The notes beneath the pieces were generated by a model, which saw only the letters and a program-made list of their open reading frames with translations, had not been told where the DNA came from and ran no database searches. From Arthrobacter sp. 35W (lineage in GTDB: Bacteria; Actinomycetota; Actinomycetes; Actinomycetales; Micrococcaceae): a stretch of DNA of 64,000 nt. A program made the translations under genes and the position numbers. Shown here one piece after another: positions 47,040 through 53,782 of this stretch. The stretch's first letter is position 1; every line of letters begins with the position of its first letter. Location of the stretch: positions 1,896,954 through 1,960,953 of the forward strand of contig NZ_KI519454.1 in NCBI RefSeq assembly GCF_000482545.1, written 5' to 3'.

Positions 47040-47783
47040 TTACGCTTCCCCTCTAATCATTCGAATAAACAGTTCGTGGATGCGGCGCTCCCCCGTCACT
47101 TCCGGGTGGAAGGAGGTGGCAAGCAGATGCTGCGAACGCACAGCCACCGCACGGACATCTGGTCCAATTCTATCCGCCCCCGCACCCGCGGCCCCTGGAA
47201 GGGCGGCAGGATCATGGCCGGCATCATGGGCCGTGGCCGGCAGGTGCACGGAGGCCAGCACCTGGACGGACTCCCCCACACGCTCCACCCAGGGCGCCCG
47301 GATGAAGACGGCGTGGACGGGAGTTTCCTGCTCGCCGGGGGCGGCCAAGCCGGTGAAGGAGAGGTTCGTCTCAAAGGAATCGCGCTGCCGGCCGAAGGCG
47401 TTGCGGCGGACCGTGATGTCCAGGCCGCCGAGGGTCTGCTGGGCGTTTCCGGCCAGATCCCGGGCGGGATCGGCAATCTCATTGGCCAGCAGGATCATCC
47501 CGGCACAGCTGCCGTAGACCGGCAGCCCTGAGGCGATGCGTTCCTTGAGCGGCTCGGCCAGCTCGAAGATGCGCGTCAGCTTGTCAATGGTGGTGGACTC
47601 GCCGCCGGGCAGGATCAAACCGTCGACGGCGGCCAGCTCGCTGGGGCGCCGGACGCTGATGGCGCGGGCTCCGCTGGCCTCGATGGCCCGGGCGTGTTCG
47701 CGGACATCGCCCTGCAGGGCGAGGATGCCCACCAGGGGCTGGGCAGAAGTGCCCGTGGACGTGGGGCTTATGTGATTGGTCAC
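47040..47783 (-). CDS. pdxT: Pyridoxal 5'-phosphate synthase glutaminase subunit
   Basis: Releases ammonia from glutamine for PdxS, which builds pyridoxal phosphate. Class I-like amidotransferase: [13 protein letters not shown] at the start, [14 protein letters not shown], the nucleophilic Cys in [11 protein letters not shown], and His/Glu in [16 protein letters not shown]. 247 residues, longer than the ~200 norm because of an insertion around [21 protein letters not shown]. The start is probably GTG 47783, with TATGAT 6 nt upstream and no RBS. The usual neighbour pdxS is not adjacent; asnB diverges instead. Confidence 0.92.
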
Positions 47784-47795
47784 CAAAACATCATA
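47784..47795 (-). promoter_or_regulatory. Putative leaderless promoter of pdxT
   Basis: TATGAT at 47790-47795 (minus strand) followed by 6 nt and the GTG start. No -35 consensus upstream; the rest of the 169-nt gap to asnB is extremely GC-rich. Confidence 0.35.
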
Positions 47796-47952
47796 GTGGC
47801 CGCCTGCTCCGCCACCGCCCGGGCGGGGCGGGCGCCCACGCCCACAGCGCCGTCGGCCTCCCCCTGCGCCGGGGTGCCGGTGCCCGACGGCCGCCCGGCC
47901 AGCAAGTAGCATTGACCGAGGACTGACGAACTACAGATGAGGAACGTACAGT

Positions 47953-50637
47953 ATGTGCGGAATCGCCGGATACTACGGTTACGGGGCAGACGAAAGTCTT
48001 CTCAAAGAGATGAATGCGTGCATTGTGCACCGCGGCCCCGACGGCGAGGGTATCTACACCGATGGCAATGTGGGCCTGGCCCACCGCCGTCTGTCCATCA
48101 TCGACGTCGCCCACGGCCAGGAGCCGATGTACAGCGCCGACGGCCAGACCGTGCTGATCTACAACGGCGAGGTCTACAACTACCTGGACCTGCGCGCCGA
48201 GCTCGAAGCCCTGGGCCGCACCTTCAGCACCGTCTCGGACACCGAAGTGGTGCTGCAGTCCTACGAGGAGTGGGGCGACGCAGCCTTCGACCGCTTCAAC
48301 GGCATGTTTGGCTTCGCCATCCATGACAAGAAGAACAGCCGCCTGGTGCTGGCCCGCGACCACTTCGGCATCAAGCCGCTGTACTACGCGAGCACCGGCA
48401 CCGCCGCCGAGCCCAAGCTGCTCTTCGGCTCGGAGATCAAGCCGCTGCTGGCCGCCGGCAAGCTGGAGAAGAAGGTCAACGAGCGGATCCTGTACCGCTA
48501 CCTCCAGTTCCGCATCCACGACGAGGAGGCCCAGACCTTCTTCGAGGGCATCCACAAGCTGATGCCCGGCGAGAAGCTGGTGCTCAGCACCGTGGACAAC
48601 GCCGACGGCCCGGCCGGCACCATCACCATCAGCCCCTTCACCCGCCTGAAGGAAGAGCTGGCCGAGCTGGCCAAGATCGAAACGCCCTACAGCCAGGCCG
48701 TCATCGATGAATACCGCGAACGCTTCACCGAGGGTGTGCGCCTGCGCCTGCAGTCCGAGGTCCCCGTGGGCACCGCGCTGTCCGGCGGACTGGACTCCTC
48801 CGCCGTCGTCGCCACCATCAACAAGCTGATGCAGGAAAAGGCCGCTGCCACGGACTCCCTGGGTGCCACCCAGCAGACGTTCTCCGCGATCTTCCCCAAC
48901 TCCATCAACGATGAAGAGAAGTACGCCGACGCCGTGCTGGCCCGCTGCGAGGGCAACGTCACCAGCCACAAGATCCTGCCCAAGGCCGACGAGTTCGCCG
49001 TCGACCTGGAGGACTTCGTCCGCACCATGGAGGAGCCCATCATCTCCTCCGGCCCCTACGCCCAGTACCGAGTGATGCAGGAGGCCTCCAAGCACGTCAC
49101 GGTGCTGCTGGACGGCCAGGGCGCCGACGAAATGATGGCCGGGTACATCCCGTACTACTTCGCCTACCTGCGCCAGCTGAAGAAGAACGGCCAGAACGCC
49201 AAGCTGGCCAAGGAGCTTGCCTCCAGTGCGGACATCCTGTTCCGCCTGGGCCGCTTCCGCCTGCAGAGCATGCTGACCATCAAGAAGGATGTCAGCATCT
49301 CCCCGCTGCTGAACAAGACCTTCACCGCGCGCTTCAAGGGCGAGAAGTTCTCCAACATCCCGGACAACCTCAAGCTGCGCCTGATCGACGACCTGTTTCA
49401 CAAGTCCCTGCCGGCCGTGCTGCGCTACGAGGACAAGAACACCATGCGCTTCTCCCTGGAGGGCCGCGTGCCGTTCCTGGACAAGGAAGTGGTCAAGTTC
49501 CTCTTCAGCCTCTCCGATGAGTCCATCATCAAGGGCGGCTGGAACAAGCGGATTCTGCGCGACGCCACCCGCGGCCTGCTGCCGGAGATGATCTCCAACC
49601 GCCGCAACAAGATCGGCTTCACCACGCCCGAGGCCGAGTGGTTCACGCTGATGAAGGAAAAGATCTACGAGATCTTCCTGTCCTCCTCCTTCGAGAACCG
49701 CCCGTACTGGAACCAGGACGCCATCATCTACGCCTTTGAGGAATACCTCAACGGCAAGAGCTCCGGCTCCACCATGGTCTTCTGGCGCCTGCTGAACACC
49801 GAGCTGTGGCTGCGCGAATTCTTCGACGAGCCGCCGGTCTTGGCTGGCATCGAGGGCAAGAGCGACTACATCCCCAATGCGGACAAGAACCTGGACATCA
49901 CCGTCCCGGCCGACGGCGGCACCTACCGCCGCTACCCGCTGCGCACGGAGGTCTTCTACAAGGAGACGGACTTCGACCCCGCCGTGATGACCTATGTGAA
50001 GCGCTTCTTCGAGGGCCTGCCCGACGCCGGAGCCGAGCACAAGGGCGCCACGGCCGACACCCCGTGGTACCTGTTCGTCTCGGAGAAGATCGTGGCCATG
50101 ACCCAGGGCCGGTCCATTCCGGTCTGGGACATCAAGGTGACCAACGCCGCGCGCTTCTTCTCCAAGTTCGTCACCCGCAACCCGGGCGGCATCGGCCTGG
50201 CCAGCCCCTGGTCCATGCAGCTGGCCATCGACGAGGTGGGCCTGCCCCGCATCGCCTATGCCTCCGCCCGCAGCGTGGTCGGCAAGCTCCAGGGCAAGTC
50301 CGGCGTGTTCTACGAAGTGGTGGGCCACAACATCAACGCGATCGACGGCGCCGCCGGCTACCAGGTGGGCACCTCCACCCACTCGGTGAAGTACGCTCCG
50401 CTGGATCCCGACGGCGTGGCCGCCCGCCTGAGCGCCCTGGTGCGCCAGCACGTTCCGGCCGAGTACGCCGCAACGTTCGCCGGCACGGCCATCATGGACG
50501 CCAACGACCTCGGCGTGGTGGCCCTGGGCCACGACACCCCCCTGTCCAAGCCGGTGCTGGAAGGGATCTTCAAGGACAACCCGCAGGGCCAGACCACCGA
50601 GACGACGCCCATGTCGCTGGTGTTCACCCAGAAGTAG
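47953..50637 (+). CDS. Asparagine synthase fused to a CofE/F420-0:glutamate-ligase-like domain
   Basis: 894 residues in one frame. Residues 1-~200 are a class II glutaminase with Cys2 (MCGIAGYYG), HRGPDGEG and YNGEVYNY. About 240-625 is the asparagine synthetase ATP-pyrophosphatase with SGGLDSSAV at 277-285, GQGADEMMAGY and RVPFLDKEVV. AsnB usually ends near there. Here a ~20-residue linker leads to ~240 more residues with features of the CofE-like amide ligase family: YPLRTEVF (661-668), FVSEKIVAMTQGRSI (708-722), FVTRNPGGIGLASPWSMQL (739-757), EVGLPRIAYAS and DANDLGVVALGH (849-860). Made with a good RBS (GAGG). Base composition is even across both parts. The first half should make asparagine from aspartate; the added activity and substrate are unknown. 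Confidence 0.88.
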   Translation: MCGIAGYYGYGADESLLKEMNACIVHRGPDGEGIYTDGNVGLAHRRLSIIDVAHGQEPMYSADGQTVLIYNGEVYNYLDLRAELEALGRTFSTVSDTEVVLQSYEEWGDAAFDRFNGMFGFAIHDKKNSRLVLARDHFGIKPLYYASTGTAAEPKLLFGSEIKPLLAAGKLEKKVNERILYRYLQFRIHDEEAQTFFEGIHKLMPGEKLVLSTVDNADGPAGTITISPFTRLKEELAELAKIETPYSQAVIDEYRERFTEGVRLRLQSEVPVGTALSGGLDSSAVVATINKLMQEKAAATDSLGATQQTFSAIFPNSINDEEKYADAVLARCEGNVTSHKILPKADEFAVDLEDFVRTMEEPIISSGPYAQYRVMQEASKHVTVLLDGQGADEMMAGYIPYYFAYLRQLKKNGQNAKLAKELASSADILFRLGRFRLQSMLTIKKDVSISPLLNKTFTARFKGEKFSNIPDNLKLRLIDDLFHKSLPAVLRYEDKNTMRFSLEGRVPFLDKEVVKFLFSLSDESIIKGGWNKRILRDATRGLLPEMISNRRNKIGFTTPEAEWFTLMKEKIYEIFLSSSFENRPYWNQDAIIYAFEEYLNGKSSGSTMVFWRLLNTELWLREFFDEPPVLAGIEGKSDYIPNADKNLDITVPADGGTYRRYPLRTEVFYKETDFDPAVMTYVKRFFEGLPDAGAEHKGATADTPWYLFVSEKIVAMTQGRSIPVWDIKVTNAARFFSKFVTRNPGGIGLASPWSMQLAIDEVGLPRIAYASARSVVGKLQGKSGVFYEVVGHNINAIDGAAGYQVGTSTHSVKYAPLDPDGVAARLSALVRQHVPAEYAATFAGTAIMDANDLGVVALGHDTPLSKPVLEGIFKDNPQGQTTETTPMSLVFTQK

Positions 50638-50675
50638 CAGCGCTCCGCGGTTAGTGCGGCGGACCTTGCAGAAAC

Positions 50676-50738
50676 GAAGACGATTGCCGCCGGGGAACAT
50701 GTTCACGCATGTTCCCCGGCGGCAATCGTCTTCTTTTG
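50676..50738. repeat. Palindromic repeat family B, copy 1; terminator of asnB
   Basis: Perfect 26-bp inverted repeat (50676-50701 / 50708-50733), 6-nt loop TTCACG, followed on the plus strand by TTTTG. The arms contain ATTGCCGCC and GGAACATG, shared with the element at 54336-54393. It lies between convergent asnB and the PaiB-like gene and should terminate asnB. Confidence 0.85.
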
Positions 50739-51429: not shown

Positions 51430-52371
51430 TCACGGGTTGGTGGGCGGGCGTGGTGTGCCCAGCCGGACGCGGACGGCCGCCGCGGCGCAGAGGATGACGG
51501 CGAGGGCGCCAACGATAGTGGTCCACGTCAACGTCTCCCCGAGCAGGAGCCAGGCCCAGCAGAGGGTCAGAATGGGTTGGACGAGCTGGATCTGGCTGAC
51601 CTGTGCCATGGGGCCGATGGCCAGGCCGCGGTACCACGCAATGAAACCCAGGAACATGCTCACGACGCCGAGGTAGGCCAGGGCGGCCCACTGGACGGGC
51701 GTGCCCGACGGCGGCTGCTGGAGGATGGACACCGCGGCCAGGACCACCATCAGCGGGGACGCAAGGACAAGCGCCCACGACACGGTCTGCCACGCGCCGA
51801 GCTCCCGGGCCAGCAGCCCACCCTCGGCGTATCCGGTGGCCGCGGCCACCACGGCACCGAAGAGCAGCAGATCGGCCCAGCCCAGCTGGCCAAAGCCGCC
51901 GGACTGGAGCAGAGCGAAGCCAATGGCGGCCAGTGCACCCAGTATGCTGGCGGCCCAGAATCCTGCCGACGGACGCTCGCGCCCGCGCAGAACGGCCGCC
52001 GCAGCCGTCGCGGCGGGCAGCAGGGCGATCACGACGGCGCCATGGCTGGCCGGGGTGGAAGTCAGGGCAAAAGAGGTGAGAAGCGGGAAGCCGACGACGA
52101 TCCCGGCAGCGACCACTGCGAGCCGAATCCACTGGCGACCCTGGGGAAGACGCTGCCGGGTGAGGCTGAGGGCCAGCACGGCCAAAATCGCAGCCACAAC
52201 GGCGCGGGCGGAGCCGATGAACAGCGGCGACAGGCCGGCGACGGCGATCTTGGTGAACGGCACAGTGAAGGAAAAAGCCGCTACTCCGAGCAGCCCCCAC
52301 CAGAGGCCCGTTGCCGATCGGGGCGGTATCACTGGCCGAACCAGGACAGTAGCGCTACTATTGTCTCTCAT
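51430..52371 (-). CDS. EamA/DMT-family transporter
   Basis: 313 residues with ten hydrophobic helices in two EamA repeats (first repeat from GLWWGLLGVAAFSFTVPFTK; second from LGWADLLLFGAVVAAATGY; LLLGETLTWTTIVGALAVI near the end). Drug/metabolite exporter type; the substrate is unknown. ATG 52371 overlaps the start codon of the divergent MocR gene, and a TATCGT box lies 5 nt upstream, so the mRNA is probably leaderless. The frame open to 52581 runs through the regulator gene and is not used. Likely controlled by that MocR protein. Confidence 0.87.
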   Translation of the reverse strand: MRDNSSATVLVRPVIPPRSATGLWWGLLGVAAFSFTVPFTKIAVAGLSPLFIGSARAVVAAILAVLALSLTRQRLPQGRQWIRLAVVAAGIVVGFPLLTSFALTSTPASHGAVVIALLPAATAAAAVLRGRERPSAGFWAASILGALAAIGFALLQSGGFGQLGWADLLLFGAVVAAATGYAEGGLLARELGAWQTVSWALVLASPLMVVLAAVSILQQPPSGTPVQWAALAYLGVVSMFLGFIAWYRGLAIGPMAQVSQIQLVQPILTLCWAWLLLGETLTWTTIVGALAVILCAAAAVRVRLGTPRPPTNP

Positions 52372-52382
52372 GTATGACGATA
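52348..52382. promoter_or_regulatory. Overlapping divergent promoters with palindromic operator candidate
   Basis: The plus-strand ATG (52370-52372) and minus-strand ATG (52369-52371) share CATG. TACTAT (52356-52361) is 8 nt before the plus start; TATCGT (52377-52382, minus) is 5 nt before the minus start and lies within the MocR coding sequence. A perfect 12-bp palindrome AGTAGCGCTACT (52348-52359) overlaps TACTAT and could bind the MocR regulator. Confidence 0.5.
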
Positions 52383-53782
52383 GCAGTTCCCGCATTGTTG
52401 CGCGACTCAAGAAGTGGATGGACGGTGCCGCACCGGGCGCCAAGCTGCCCTCAACGCGGACCTTGGTTGCCGAGTTCCAGGCCAGTCCGGTCACGGTGCA
52501 AAAGGCGCTGCAGACACTCACTTCGCGGGGGTTGATCGAGAGCCGGCCCGGAGTGGGGACGTTTGTCAGGGCCACCCGCACGGCACGGCCGTCGGACTAC
52601 GGCTGGCAGAGTGCCGCCCTCGGATCATCACCGGCCCTGTTGTCGTCCAGATCCGCCACCATGCGCGGCGCATCGAACGAGGCCATCGCATTCCACTCCG
52701 GCTACCCGGACCGGGAGCTGCTGCCGGAGCGCCTCGTCCGTGCGGCGCTGGCCCGCGCAGCCCGGGGCGATGCAGCGCTGTCCCGGCCGCCGGCCGCGGG
52801 GCTTCCCGAACTGCAGTCCTGGTTTTCGCAGGAACTTGGCGCCGCCACGCCTGCCGGCATCAACCCGCCCACGCCCAGCGACGTCGTCGTGCTCCCCGGC
52901 AGCCAAAGCGGTCTCAGCTCCATCTTCAGCGCCTTGGTCGGCCGCGGGCAGCCGCTGCTCATCGAATCGCCCACCTATTGGGGTGCCATCCTCGCCGCGT
53001 CGCAGGCCGGCGTCCGGCTGGTTCCCGTGCCCAGCGGCCCCGAGGGGCCCGATCCGGAGGCGCTGGCCCGGGCCTTTTCCGACACCGGTGCACGGATGTT
53101 CTACGCACAGCCGCATTACGCCAATCCCACCGGGTCGCAATGGGCTCCGGGGCGGGGTGAGCAGATTCTGGACGTGGTGCGCAGCAATGGGGCGTTTCTG
53201 GTTGAGGACGACTGGGCCCACGACTTTGGCATCACCACCAGCCCCTCGCCCATCGCTGCACGGGACGATTCCGGCCACGTCATCTACATCCGTTCCCTGA
53301 CCAAGAGCGTCTCCCCCGCCATCCGCATTGCCGGCGTCATAGCCCGCGGGCCGGCGCGCGAACGCATCCTGGCGGACAGGAGTGCGGAGTCCATGTATGT
53401 GAGCGGCTTCCTCCAGGCTGCAGCCCTCGACGTCGTCACGCAGCCGGGCTGGCAGACGCACCTGCGCAGCCTCCGCCACCAGTTGCAATCCCGCCGCGAC
53501 CTCTTGGTGGCCAGCCTGCGGGAGCACGCGCCGGAAGCCCACATCGAACACATCCCCAAGGGTGGGCTGAACTTGTGGCTGCGCATGCCCGACGGAACGA
53601 ACCTTGCCAGGCTGACACGCGACTGCGAAGATGCCGGCGTCATCATCGCTGCCGGCACGGAATGGTTCCCTGCCGAACCCACCGGGCCGTTCATCCGGCT
53701 CAACTACTCGGGTGCGAACCCCGGCGCCTATCCCGAGGGTGCACGTGTGCTGGGCGCCGCGCTCAGGAACAACGGCGGCTAG
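52370..53782 (+). CDS. MocR/PdxR-type regulator (GntR winged helix + aminotransferase fold)
   Basis: 470 residues. The N-terminal GntR winged helix (KLPSTRTLVAEFQASPVTVQ, then LIESRPGVGTFV) is joined to a class I aminotransferase-like domain with VLPGSQSGLSSIFSAL, AQPHYANPTGSQW and the PLP lysine region IRSLTKSVSPAIRIAGVIA. Such proteins sense PLP or an amino compound and regulate vitamin B6, GABA or exporter genes. Divergent overlap with the EamA exporter makes that gene the likely target, together with the PaiB-like gene. The stop shares CTAG with the convergent DUF1990 gene. The frame open to 51701 is antisense to EamA and not coding. Confidence 0.9.
   Translation: MYDDSSSRIVARLKKWMDGAAPGAKLPSTRTLVAEFQASPVTVQKALQTLTSRGLIESRPGVGTFVRATRTARPSDYGWQSAALGSSPALLSSRSATMRGASNEAIAFHSGYPDRELLPERLVRAALARAARGDAALSRPPAAGLPELQSWFSQELGAATPAGINPPTPSDVVVLPGSQSGLSSIFSALVGRGQPLLIESPTYWGAILAASQAGVRLVPVPSGPEGPDPEALARAFSDTGARMFYAQPHYANPTGSQWAPGRGEQILDVVRSNGAFLVEDDWAHDFGITTSPSPIAARDDSGHVIYIRSLTKSVSPAIRIAGVIARGPARERILADRSAESMYVSGFLQAAALDVVTQPGWQTHLRSLRHQLQSRRDLLVASLREHAPEAHIEHIPKGGLNLWLRMPDGTNLARLTRDCEDAGVIIAAGTEWFPAEPTGPFIRLNYSGANPGAYPEGARVLGAALRNNGG

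Follow-up and report, generated by a model that had tools for sequence, protein, structure and literature searches.

A fused AsnB-type amidotransferase and CofE-like ligase of Arthrobacter sp. 35W, a probable peptidoglycan-precursor modifying enzyme in place of MurT/GatD

The stretch of DNA analysed here (the window) comprises 64,000 nucleotides of the genome of Arthrobacter sp. 35W and contains, on its forward strand, a gene for an 894-residue protein in which a glutamine-dependent amidotransferase of the AsnB (asparagine synthetase) type is continued in the same chain by a domain resembling the ligase CofE. As judged from genomes and published wall chemistry, this fused protein is probably a bifunctional enzyme that modifies peptidoglycan precursors in place of MurT/GatD. 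The D-Glu alpha-carboxyl of these precursors is the most likely acceptor, because the CofE-like domain and MurT never co-occurred in a genome and because of the published wall chemistry of two carriers. A first-pass annotation of the window had proposed that amidation is coupled to the ligation of an amino acid, or that an amino acid is passed to an acceptor that it left unnamed; this agrees with the evidence below, to which the identity of the proposed acceptor is new.

Mutual exclusion of the CofE-like domain and MurT

Co-occurrence of the CofE-like domain with MurT_C (PF08353) was scored in the same genomes, and no genome of any sample contained both. Thus, the domain and MurT were present, respectively, in 13 and 165 of 296 genomes of a class sample, in 30 and 84 of 248 genomes of an order sample, in 46 and 85 of 197 genomes of the family to which Arthrobacter sp. 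35W belongs (66 with neither) and in 35 and 9 of 47 genomes of the Brachybacterium family (3 with neither, two of these less than 90% complete), exactly one of the two being found in 44 of the latter 47. For the union of 717 genomes, the corresponding numbers were 99 with the domain, 310 with MurT, none with both (42.8 expected if the two were independent) and 308 with neither. Fisher values for exclusion were between 2e-5 and 2e-27 and ignore relatedness; the alternation seen inside families and genera is a better argument, each of genus codes g14, g161 and g112 holding domain-only and MurT-only genomes and none with both.

The class count was made with a single sequence (P0002) and the other counts with a profile (A1), and distant copies in the class may be undercounted. 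Weak profile matches (E values of about 3e-5 to 1e-3) were dropped from the domain counts, which affected 15 genomes of the order sample and 7 of the own family; the cut was set after the gap between these and the strong matches (E 1e-72 or better) had been seen. Ten weak-match loci were fetched, and with a simple gene caller five were clearly FbiB-type by motifs and the other five gave no clear call. Among the MurT matches, seven in family code f4 were weak (23–38 bits, one below the 25-bit cut-off). A divergent MurT-like protein with scores of 23–38 bits, and no strong CofE-like match, was noted in genomes of the Microbacterium family (G091, G166 and G218, genus code g8; G081, G174, G483 and G493, f4), and this protein may be another ligase for the D-Glu alpha-carboxyl. 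Neither the domain nor MurT was noted in G551, a Micrococcus-type genome that is 99% complete and belongs to the same genus code (g189) as the M. luteus-type genome G644 considered below.

MurT together with GatD amidates the D-Glu alpha-carboxyl in lipid II (PMC3266927, excerpt), and the mutual exclusion suggests functional replacement at this group, which would be the acceptor common to both systems. The means would differ, however, since MurT is related to the Mur ligases and GatD is a glutaminase of another kind, whereas the protein described here combines CofE-like and AsnB parts and would add an amino acid where MurT/GatD adds ammonia.

Wall chemistry of carriers

Replacement of MurT by the domain at this carboxyl would lead one to expect some other masking group there in carriers. 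Taxonomists have for decades catalogued peptidoglycans in which the D-Glu alpha-carboxyl bears an amino acid, and in the Microbacterium wall type the cross-bridge starts with Gly on D-Glu. Glycine on the D-Glu alpha-carboxyl has been published for Intrasporangium calvum, the genome of which (G470, matched to this species by an identical protein) contained an intact fusion and was MurT-negative. Stems of Micrococcus luteus, from a strain other than that of the genome examined, are given as Ae(q)Ka/Ae(G)Ka (PMC6962226, excerpt); the M. luteus-type genome G644 contained the domain without AsnB catalytic motifs and without a MurT_C match, and the protein from this genome was identical in 239 of its last 240 residues to a protein named M. 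luteus. In addition to Ala, Glu and meso-diaminopimelic acid (mDAP), Gly occurs in the walls of Brachybacterium vulturis and B. avium, members of a family for which the type A4gamma is given (PMC6090031, excerpt), and B. vulturis (G535) had the fusion and no MurT.

Other observations weigh against a Gly- or D-Ala-adding enzyme at this position. Amidated (q) stems are listed for M. luteus as well, though G644 was without a MurT_C match (PMC6962226, excerpt), and the murein of B. faecium is listed as mDAP, Ala and Glu with no Gly (PMC3035206) although the genome of this species (G516) contained an intact fusion and was MurT-negative; D-Ala as the added residue could fit B. faecium but amounts to a rescue. 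I. calvum and M. luteus were the only carriers for which chemistry at the D-Glu position was found. The D-Glu substituent was not mentioned in open-access excerpts dealing with Renibacterium, Sinomonas, Arthrobacter or the Actinobacteria as a whole, and no statement on an amide on the added residue was seen in open-access papers. The proposed amide follows the D-Ala-amide and Gly-amide chemotypes of Arthrobacter and Renibacterium, of which D-Ala-amide belongs to Renibacterium; no source for the latter was found in these papers. In addition, 308 genomes lacked both MurT and the domain, which indicates that other solutions exist, and distant copies of the domain found beside MurJ in family code f24 (see below) may have a different job.

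The fused gene and the identity of its ligase domain

The gene is a single unbroken open reading frame (ORF) from the start ATG at 47953 to the stop TAG at 50635-50637, with the following features in window coordinates:

47939..47944, + strand, candidate ribosome-binding site GAGGAA, 8 nt 5' of the ATG (read from the sequence)
47953..50637, + strand, fused gene for AsnB-type amidotransferase and CofE-like ligase domain, 894 aa (ORF and translation; same architecture in homologues)
47956..48453, + strand, glutaminase (Ntn-type GATase) part, residues 2-167, with N-terminal Cys2 (Pfam GATase_7/GATase_6)
48709..49815, + strand, Asn_synthase (ATP pyrophosphatase) part, residues 253-621 (PF00733, E 1e-63)
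48781..48798, + strand, PP-loop SGGLDS, residues 277-282 (read in the translation and the alignment)
49111..49131, + strand, DGQGADE, residues 387-393 (alignment with solved AsnB relatives)
49870..50634, + strand, CofE-like ligase domain, residues about 640-894 (profile and fold)
50681..50728, + strand, terminator-like hairpin, 20-pair stem followed by a T-rich tail (3' of the stop codon)

Residues 2-621 correspond to a complete AsnB. Thus, the protein begins MCG, Pfam placed GATase_7 (PF13537) at residues 44-167 (E 5e-44) and Asn_synthase at 253-621, and TIGR01536 (asn_synth_AEB) of NCBIfam scored above its cut-off, all in keeping with the first-pass annotation, which had the AsnB domains end near residue 625. 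The four motifs that it quoted from the C-terminal extension were all located (residues 708 to 854), and its remarks that codon use is the same in both halves and that the gene has its own terminator were borne out by third-position GC contents of 0.93 for the AsnB part and 0.956 for the C-terminal part, a codon-count correlation of 0.88 and the hairpin listed above. In the genome of Arthrobacter sp. 35W, the fused gene was the sole PF00733 match and the C-terminal domain matched once.

Assignment of the extension to CofE, also claimed at first pass, required intermediates because direct searches gave no significant result: PF01996 (F420_ligase) matched the 894-residue protein with an E value of 0.051, under the curated cut-off; NCBIfam gave no match in the C-terminal part; and a PDB sequence search with that part gave no significant CofE match. 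The same Pfam family scored over its curated cut-off in three of five standalone relatives tested, and fold comparison of the C-terminal domain returned the CofE fold. The extra domain is, by profile through these relatives and by fold, CofE-like, and to this extent the original call stood, although not as a direct match.

The closest named system, CofE and the N-terminal domain of FbiB (F420-0:L-glutamate ligase, PF01996), differs in several respects. A GR-WR-GQ-D-A-G region was present in five of five FbiB-type rows and absent from all 14 rows of the CofE-like domain family, which has invariant motifs of its own around DxNDxG, DN and TP and which, in the present protein, is fused to AsnB. 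Furthermore, the single CofD-family (PF01933) match in the genome lies between rapZ and whiA and reads, from translations, as YvcK. From the lack of the FbiB-type region and this reading of the sole CofD-family gene, it is unlikely that the domain is an F420 ligase, and a role in F420 biosynthesis was disfavoured.

A broader possibility is that glutamylation or aminoacylation by the CofE-like half is directed at a different target on the surface or among cofactors (F420, teichoic acid or a protein) and that the absence of MurT is incidental. In its favour is qimC of Streptococcus pyogenes, a CofE-like protein encoded in a cell-wall modification operon, the role of which is unexplained (PMC13059722, excerpt); the likeness is by description only and the organism is of a different phylum. 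Exclusion of MurT, however, recurs in several families and within three genus codes, wall chemistry agrees with the D-Glu position and the only CofD-family match is the one that reads as YvcK, so that another target appears unlikely.

Conservation of the ligase half and decay of the AsnB half

Within an alignment of 212 proteins, 15 of 18 tested positions of the CofE-like half were invariant (E711, K712, R720, G748, M755, Y787, D798, G799, D849, N851, D852, N876, Q880, T885 and P886) and the others nearly so (G719 and P752 in 211, T665 in 207). This alignment holds several locus rows that are identical or nearly identical to protein rows, i.e., it does not represent 212 independent sequences, and proteins shorter than 780 residues were excluded apart from two Micrococcus-type loci. 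Conservation of the AsnB half was less complete. Thus, Cys2 was conserved in 189 of the 212, and Cys2 and the PP-loop (SGGxDA scored as intact) were both intact in 185, both lost in 19, among them M. luteus, and one of the two lost in 8, a number that includes one row merely lacking its N-terminus. Identity of the 19 decayed copies to their nearest intact copies was 66–91% for the ligase half and 25–66% for the AsnB half (84% and 34%, respectively, in one example), compared with means of 88% and 87% for 40 intact pairs. Little of the AsnB half was left in M. luteus. Distribution of decayed and intact copies on the domain tree required at least nine state changes, six of them forced by well-supported branches, by a quick method that cannot separate gain from loss. 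MurT was absent from all ten decayed-copy genomes scanned (G209, G313, G338, G416, G425, G438, G458, G537, G572 and G644). Since the AsnB half decays selectively and the ligase half is conserved, the ligase is likely the core function and amidation optional; by these sequence comparisons, the AsnB half is likely the dispensable half of the fusion.

The CofE-like gene of M. luteus (L165, from G644; positions 739-2268, - strand) grouped with three intact fusions on a quick tree (support 98) and lay in the Brachybacterium-family part of the domain tree (support 82–93), apart from other Micrococcaceae. This placement suggests horizontal transfer and loss of the AsnB half.

These results bear on whether the fusion simply does the job of MurT/GatD, with the CofE-like half activating the D-Glu alpha-carboxyl and the AsnB glutaminase supplying ammonia to give D-isoglutamine and no added amino acid. 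Formation of D-isoglutamine would account for the exclusion of MurT, for the attached glutaminase and for the amidated stems that also appear in the M. luteus legend (PMC6962226, excerpt). Yet copies that have lost both the glutaminase Cys and the PP-loop retain the domain in genomes still lacking MurT, the domain stands alone in Microbacterium, and the alpha-carboxyl of I. calvum D-Glu carries Gly; moreover, CofE joins amino acids rather than ammonia (PMC10861534, excerpt) and an intact ATP-pyrophosphatase site would be superfluous. We regard D-isoglutamine as an improbable product.

Substrate of the AsnB half

Where the fused protein reads DGQGADE, three solved AsnB relatives read SGEAADE, SGEGSDE and SGEGSDE. 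The Glu of the SGE motif has a catalytic role in asparagine synthetases; it is replaced by Gln389 in the present protein and by Gln, His or Leu (161, 21 and 3, respectively) in all 185 intact proteins, Glu being found at this position in none of the 212, which argues against aspartate as substrate. In addition, no asparaginyl-tRNA synthetase scored above cut-off in the genome of Arthrobacter sp. 35W, the matches reading as AspRS and LysRS. A role in asparagine supply was disfavoured on both grounds. That the protein is nonetheless a typical asparagine synthetase, its C-terminal domain being accessory, and makes free asparagine as the only AsnB of the genome would be in line with the sole PF00733 match and with the TIGR01536 score, but conservation of the CofE-like half alongside a decaying AsnB half argues against this and exclusion of MurT would be left unexplained; together with the replaced Glu and the synthetase result, these points make it very improbable.

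Amidation of a wall precursor would have parallels within the family. Listeria AsnB amidates peptidoglycan (PMC8554201, excerpt) and LtsA of Corynebacterium glutamicum, an AsnB relative, is reported to do likewise (PMC7920481, excerpt), both by glutamine-dependent amidation of a precursor carboxyl, and by analogy an amidating role for the AsnB half is plausible. These enzymes differ from the present protein in that they act on diaminopimelate, and no ligase domain is mentioned for them in the excerpts.

Distribution of the fusion and of the domain

A query with the C-terminal region returned 479 homologues, and the Asn_synthase domain was also present in 120 of 120 among the matches listed. 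Carriers of the fusion among these matches were Arthrobacter, Renibacterium, Psychromicrobium, Sinomonas, Specibacter, Acaricomes, Tersicoccus and Pseudarthrobacter as well as Intrasporangium, Terrabacter, Knoellia and others. A Brachybacterium-family query added many Brachybacterium, together with Helcobacillus, Rudaeicoccus and Calidifontibacter, and also found Micrococcus copies without AsnB Pfam domains. With a standalone query, 80 loci were found in the named genome collection, 72 titled Microbacterium and 1 Gulosibacter, with identities of 71–92%. More distant copies, mostly in short ORFs, were present in four genomes of family code f24. Scoring in the second and third of the homologue searches was limited to the 8000 and 7999 candidates, respectively, with most words in common.

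The fusion thus recurs in Micrococcaceae, relatives of Intrasporangium and Brachybacterium, the domain alone being found in Microbacterium. A chance or lineage-specific fusion was rejected, given homologues of the same architecture in several families; the first-pass view that the gene is no chance fusion was thereby upheld, and the extension it saw on AsnB is real, although recurrence across several families in the taxonomic survey leaves no rarity.

Microbacterium-type loci were also noted under other labels (L085, L107 and L129; titles Stenotrophomonas maltophilia and Candidatus Microthrix, and a contig labelled Halomonas), probably through contamination or mis-binning. In the linker of P0309, from Micrococcus sp., there is a stretch that by reading resembles glycogen branching enzyme, and this entry looks like an assembly chimera.

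Neighbourhood of standalone copies

Among the 80 Microbacterium-type loci, the standalone gene followed sigA in 77 of 78 that were testable, an ATP-grasp gene was located at most 600 bp downstream in 58 of 77 (convergent in seven loci examined) and an alanine-racemase-like gene was located within 6 kb in 50 of 71. At f24 loci, a MurJ-like gene was immediately convergent in four of six (L022, L025, L026 and L027; Pfam MurJ tested on L025 only), and one f24 genome (G117) contained three distant copies. Flanking genes were called by a GC3 heuristic with approximate start codons. These neighbours fit wall-precursor chemistry and are no proof of it.

Other features of the window

An antisense ORF of 971 residues (47791-50706, - strand) covers the entire fused gene and is probably a by-product of very high third-position GC rather than evidence of a gene. 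By names read from translations, a MocR/PdxR-like GntR-aminotransferase regulator (+ strand) and an EamA-like transporter (- strand) lie side by side at 51430-53782, and a pdxT-like gene lies near this regulator at 47040-47912 (- strand); all three are possibly linked to vitamin B6.

Proposed activity and its significance

CofE joins glutamate to F420 by a reaction in which GTP activates the acceptor carboxylate as an acyl phosphate that is attacked by the amine of the incoming amino acid (PMC10861534, excerpt); by analogy, the same chemistry on D-Glu would give alpha-linked Gly. The CofE-like half would thus link the D-Glu alpha-carboxyl of a wall precursor to a small amino acid through the amino group of the latter; this amino acid would be glycine in most lineages, with D-alanine possible in some. 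The AsnB half would then hydrolyse glutamine, adenylate the carboxyl of the added residue and amidate it to Gly-NH2 or D-Ala-NH2, and with this capping amide the wall would still lose that negative charge. Where the residue is left unamidated, as in Micrococcus, or built into the cross-bridge, as in the Microbacterium wall type, the AsnB half would have been lost or never acquired and the ligase kept. The precursor stage, the residue added, the order of the reactions and the amide itself are inferred.

On balance, we favour the wider proposal that the missing enzyme for attachment of Gly (or D-Ala) to the D-Glu alpha-carboxyl of actinobacterial peptidoglycan, in Micrococcus, relatives of Arthrobacter, Intrasporangium, Brachybacterium and Microbacterium, is this family of CofE-fold ligases in its fused or unfused form, that the family was repeatedly exchanged with MurT/GatD to mask the same charge, and that the AsnB domain caps the new residue, a capping abandoned repeatedly (at least nine state changes). 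Neither the fusion nor a ligase for the D-Glu alpha-carboxyl was found described in excerpts of the open-licence literature of PubMed Central, a scope outside which most subscription journals fall. The system brings together, in a new way, folds and chemistry that are already known, at a site without an enzyme named in that literature.

GatD and MurT are essential in Staphylococcus aureus (PMC3266927, excerpt), and a replacement enzyme is therefore probably important for wall synthesis of its host. The findings suggest that the annotations 'asparagine synthase' and 'F420-0:L-glutamate ligase' are wrong for hundreds of actinobacterial proteins. If the proposal is true, each lineage would have a concrete gene for this modification, and sequence would predict which strains add the residue and which also cap it.

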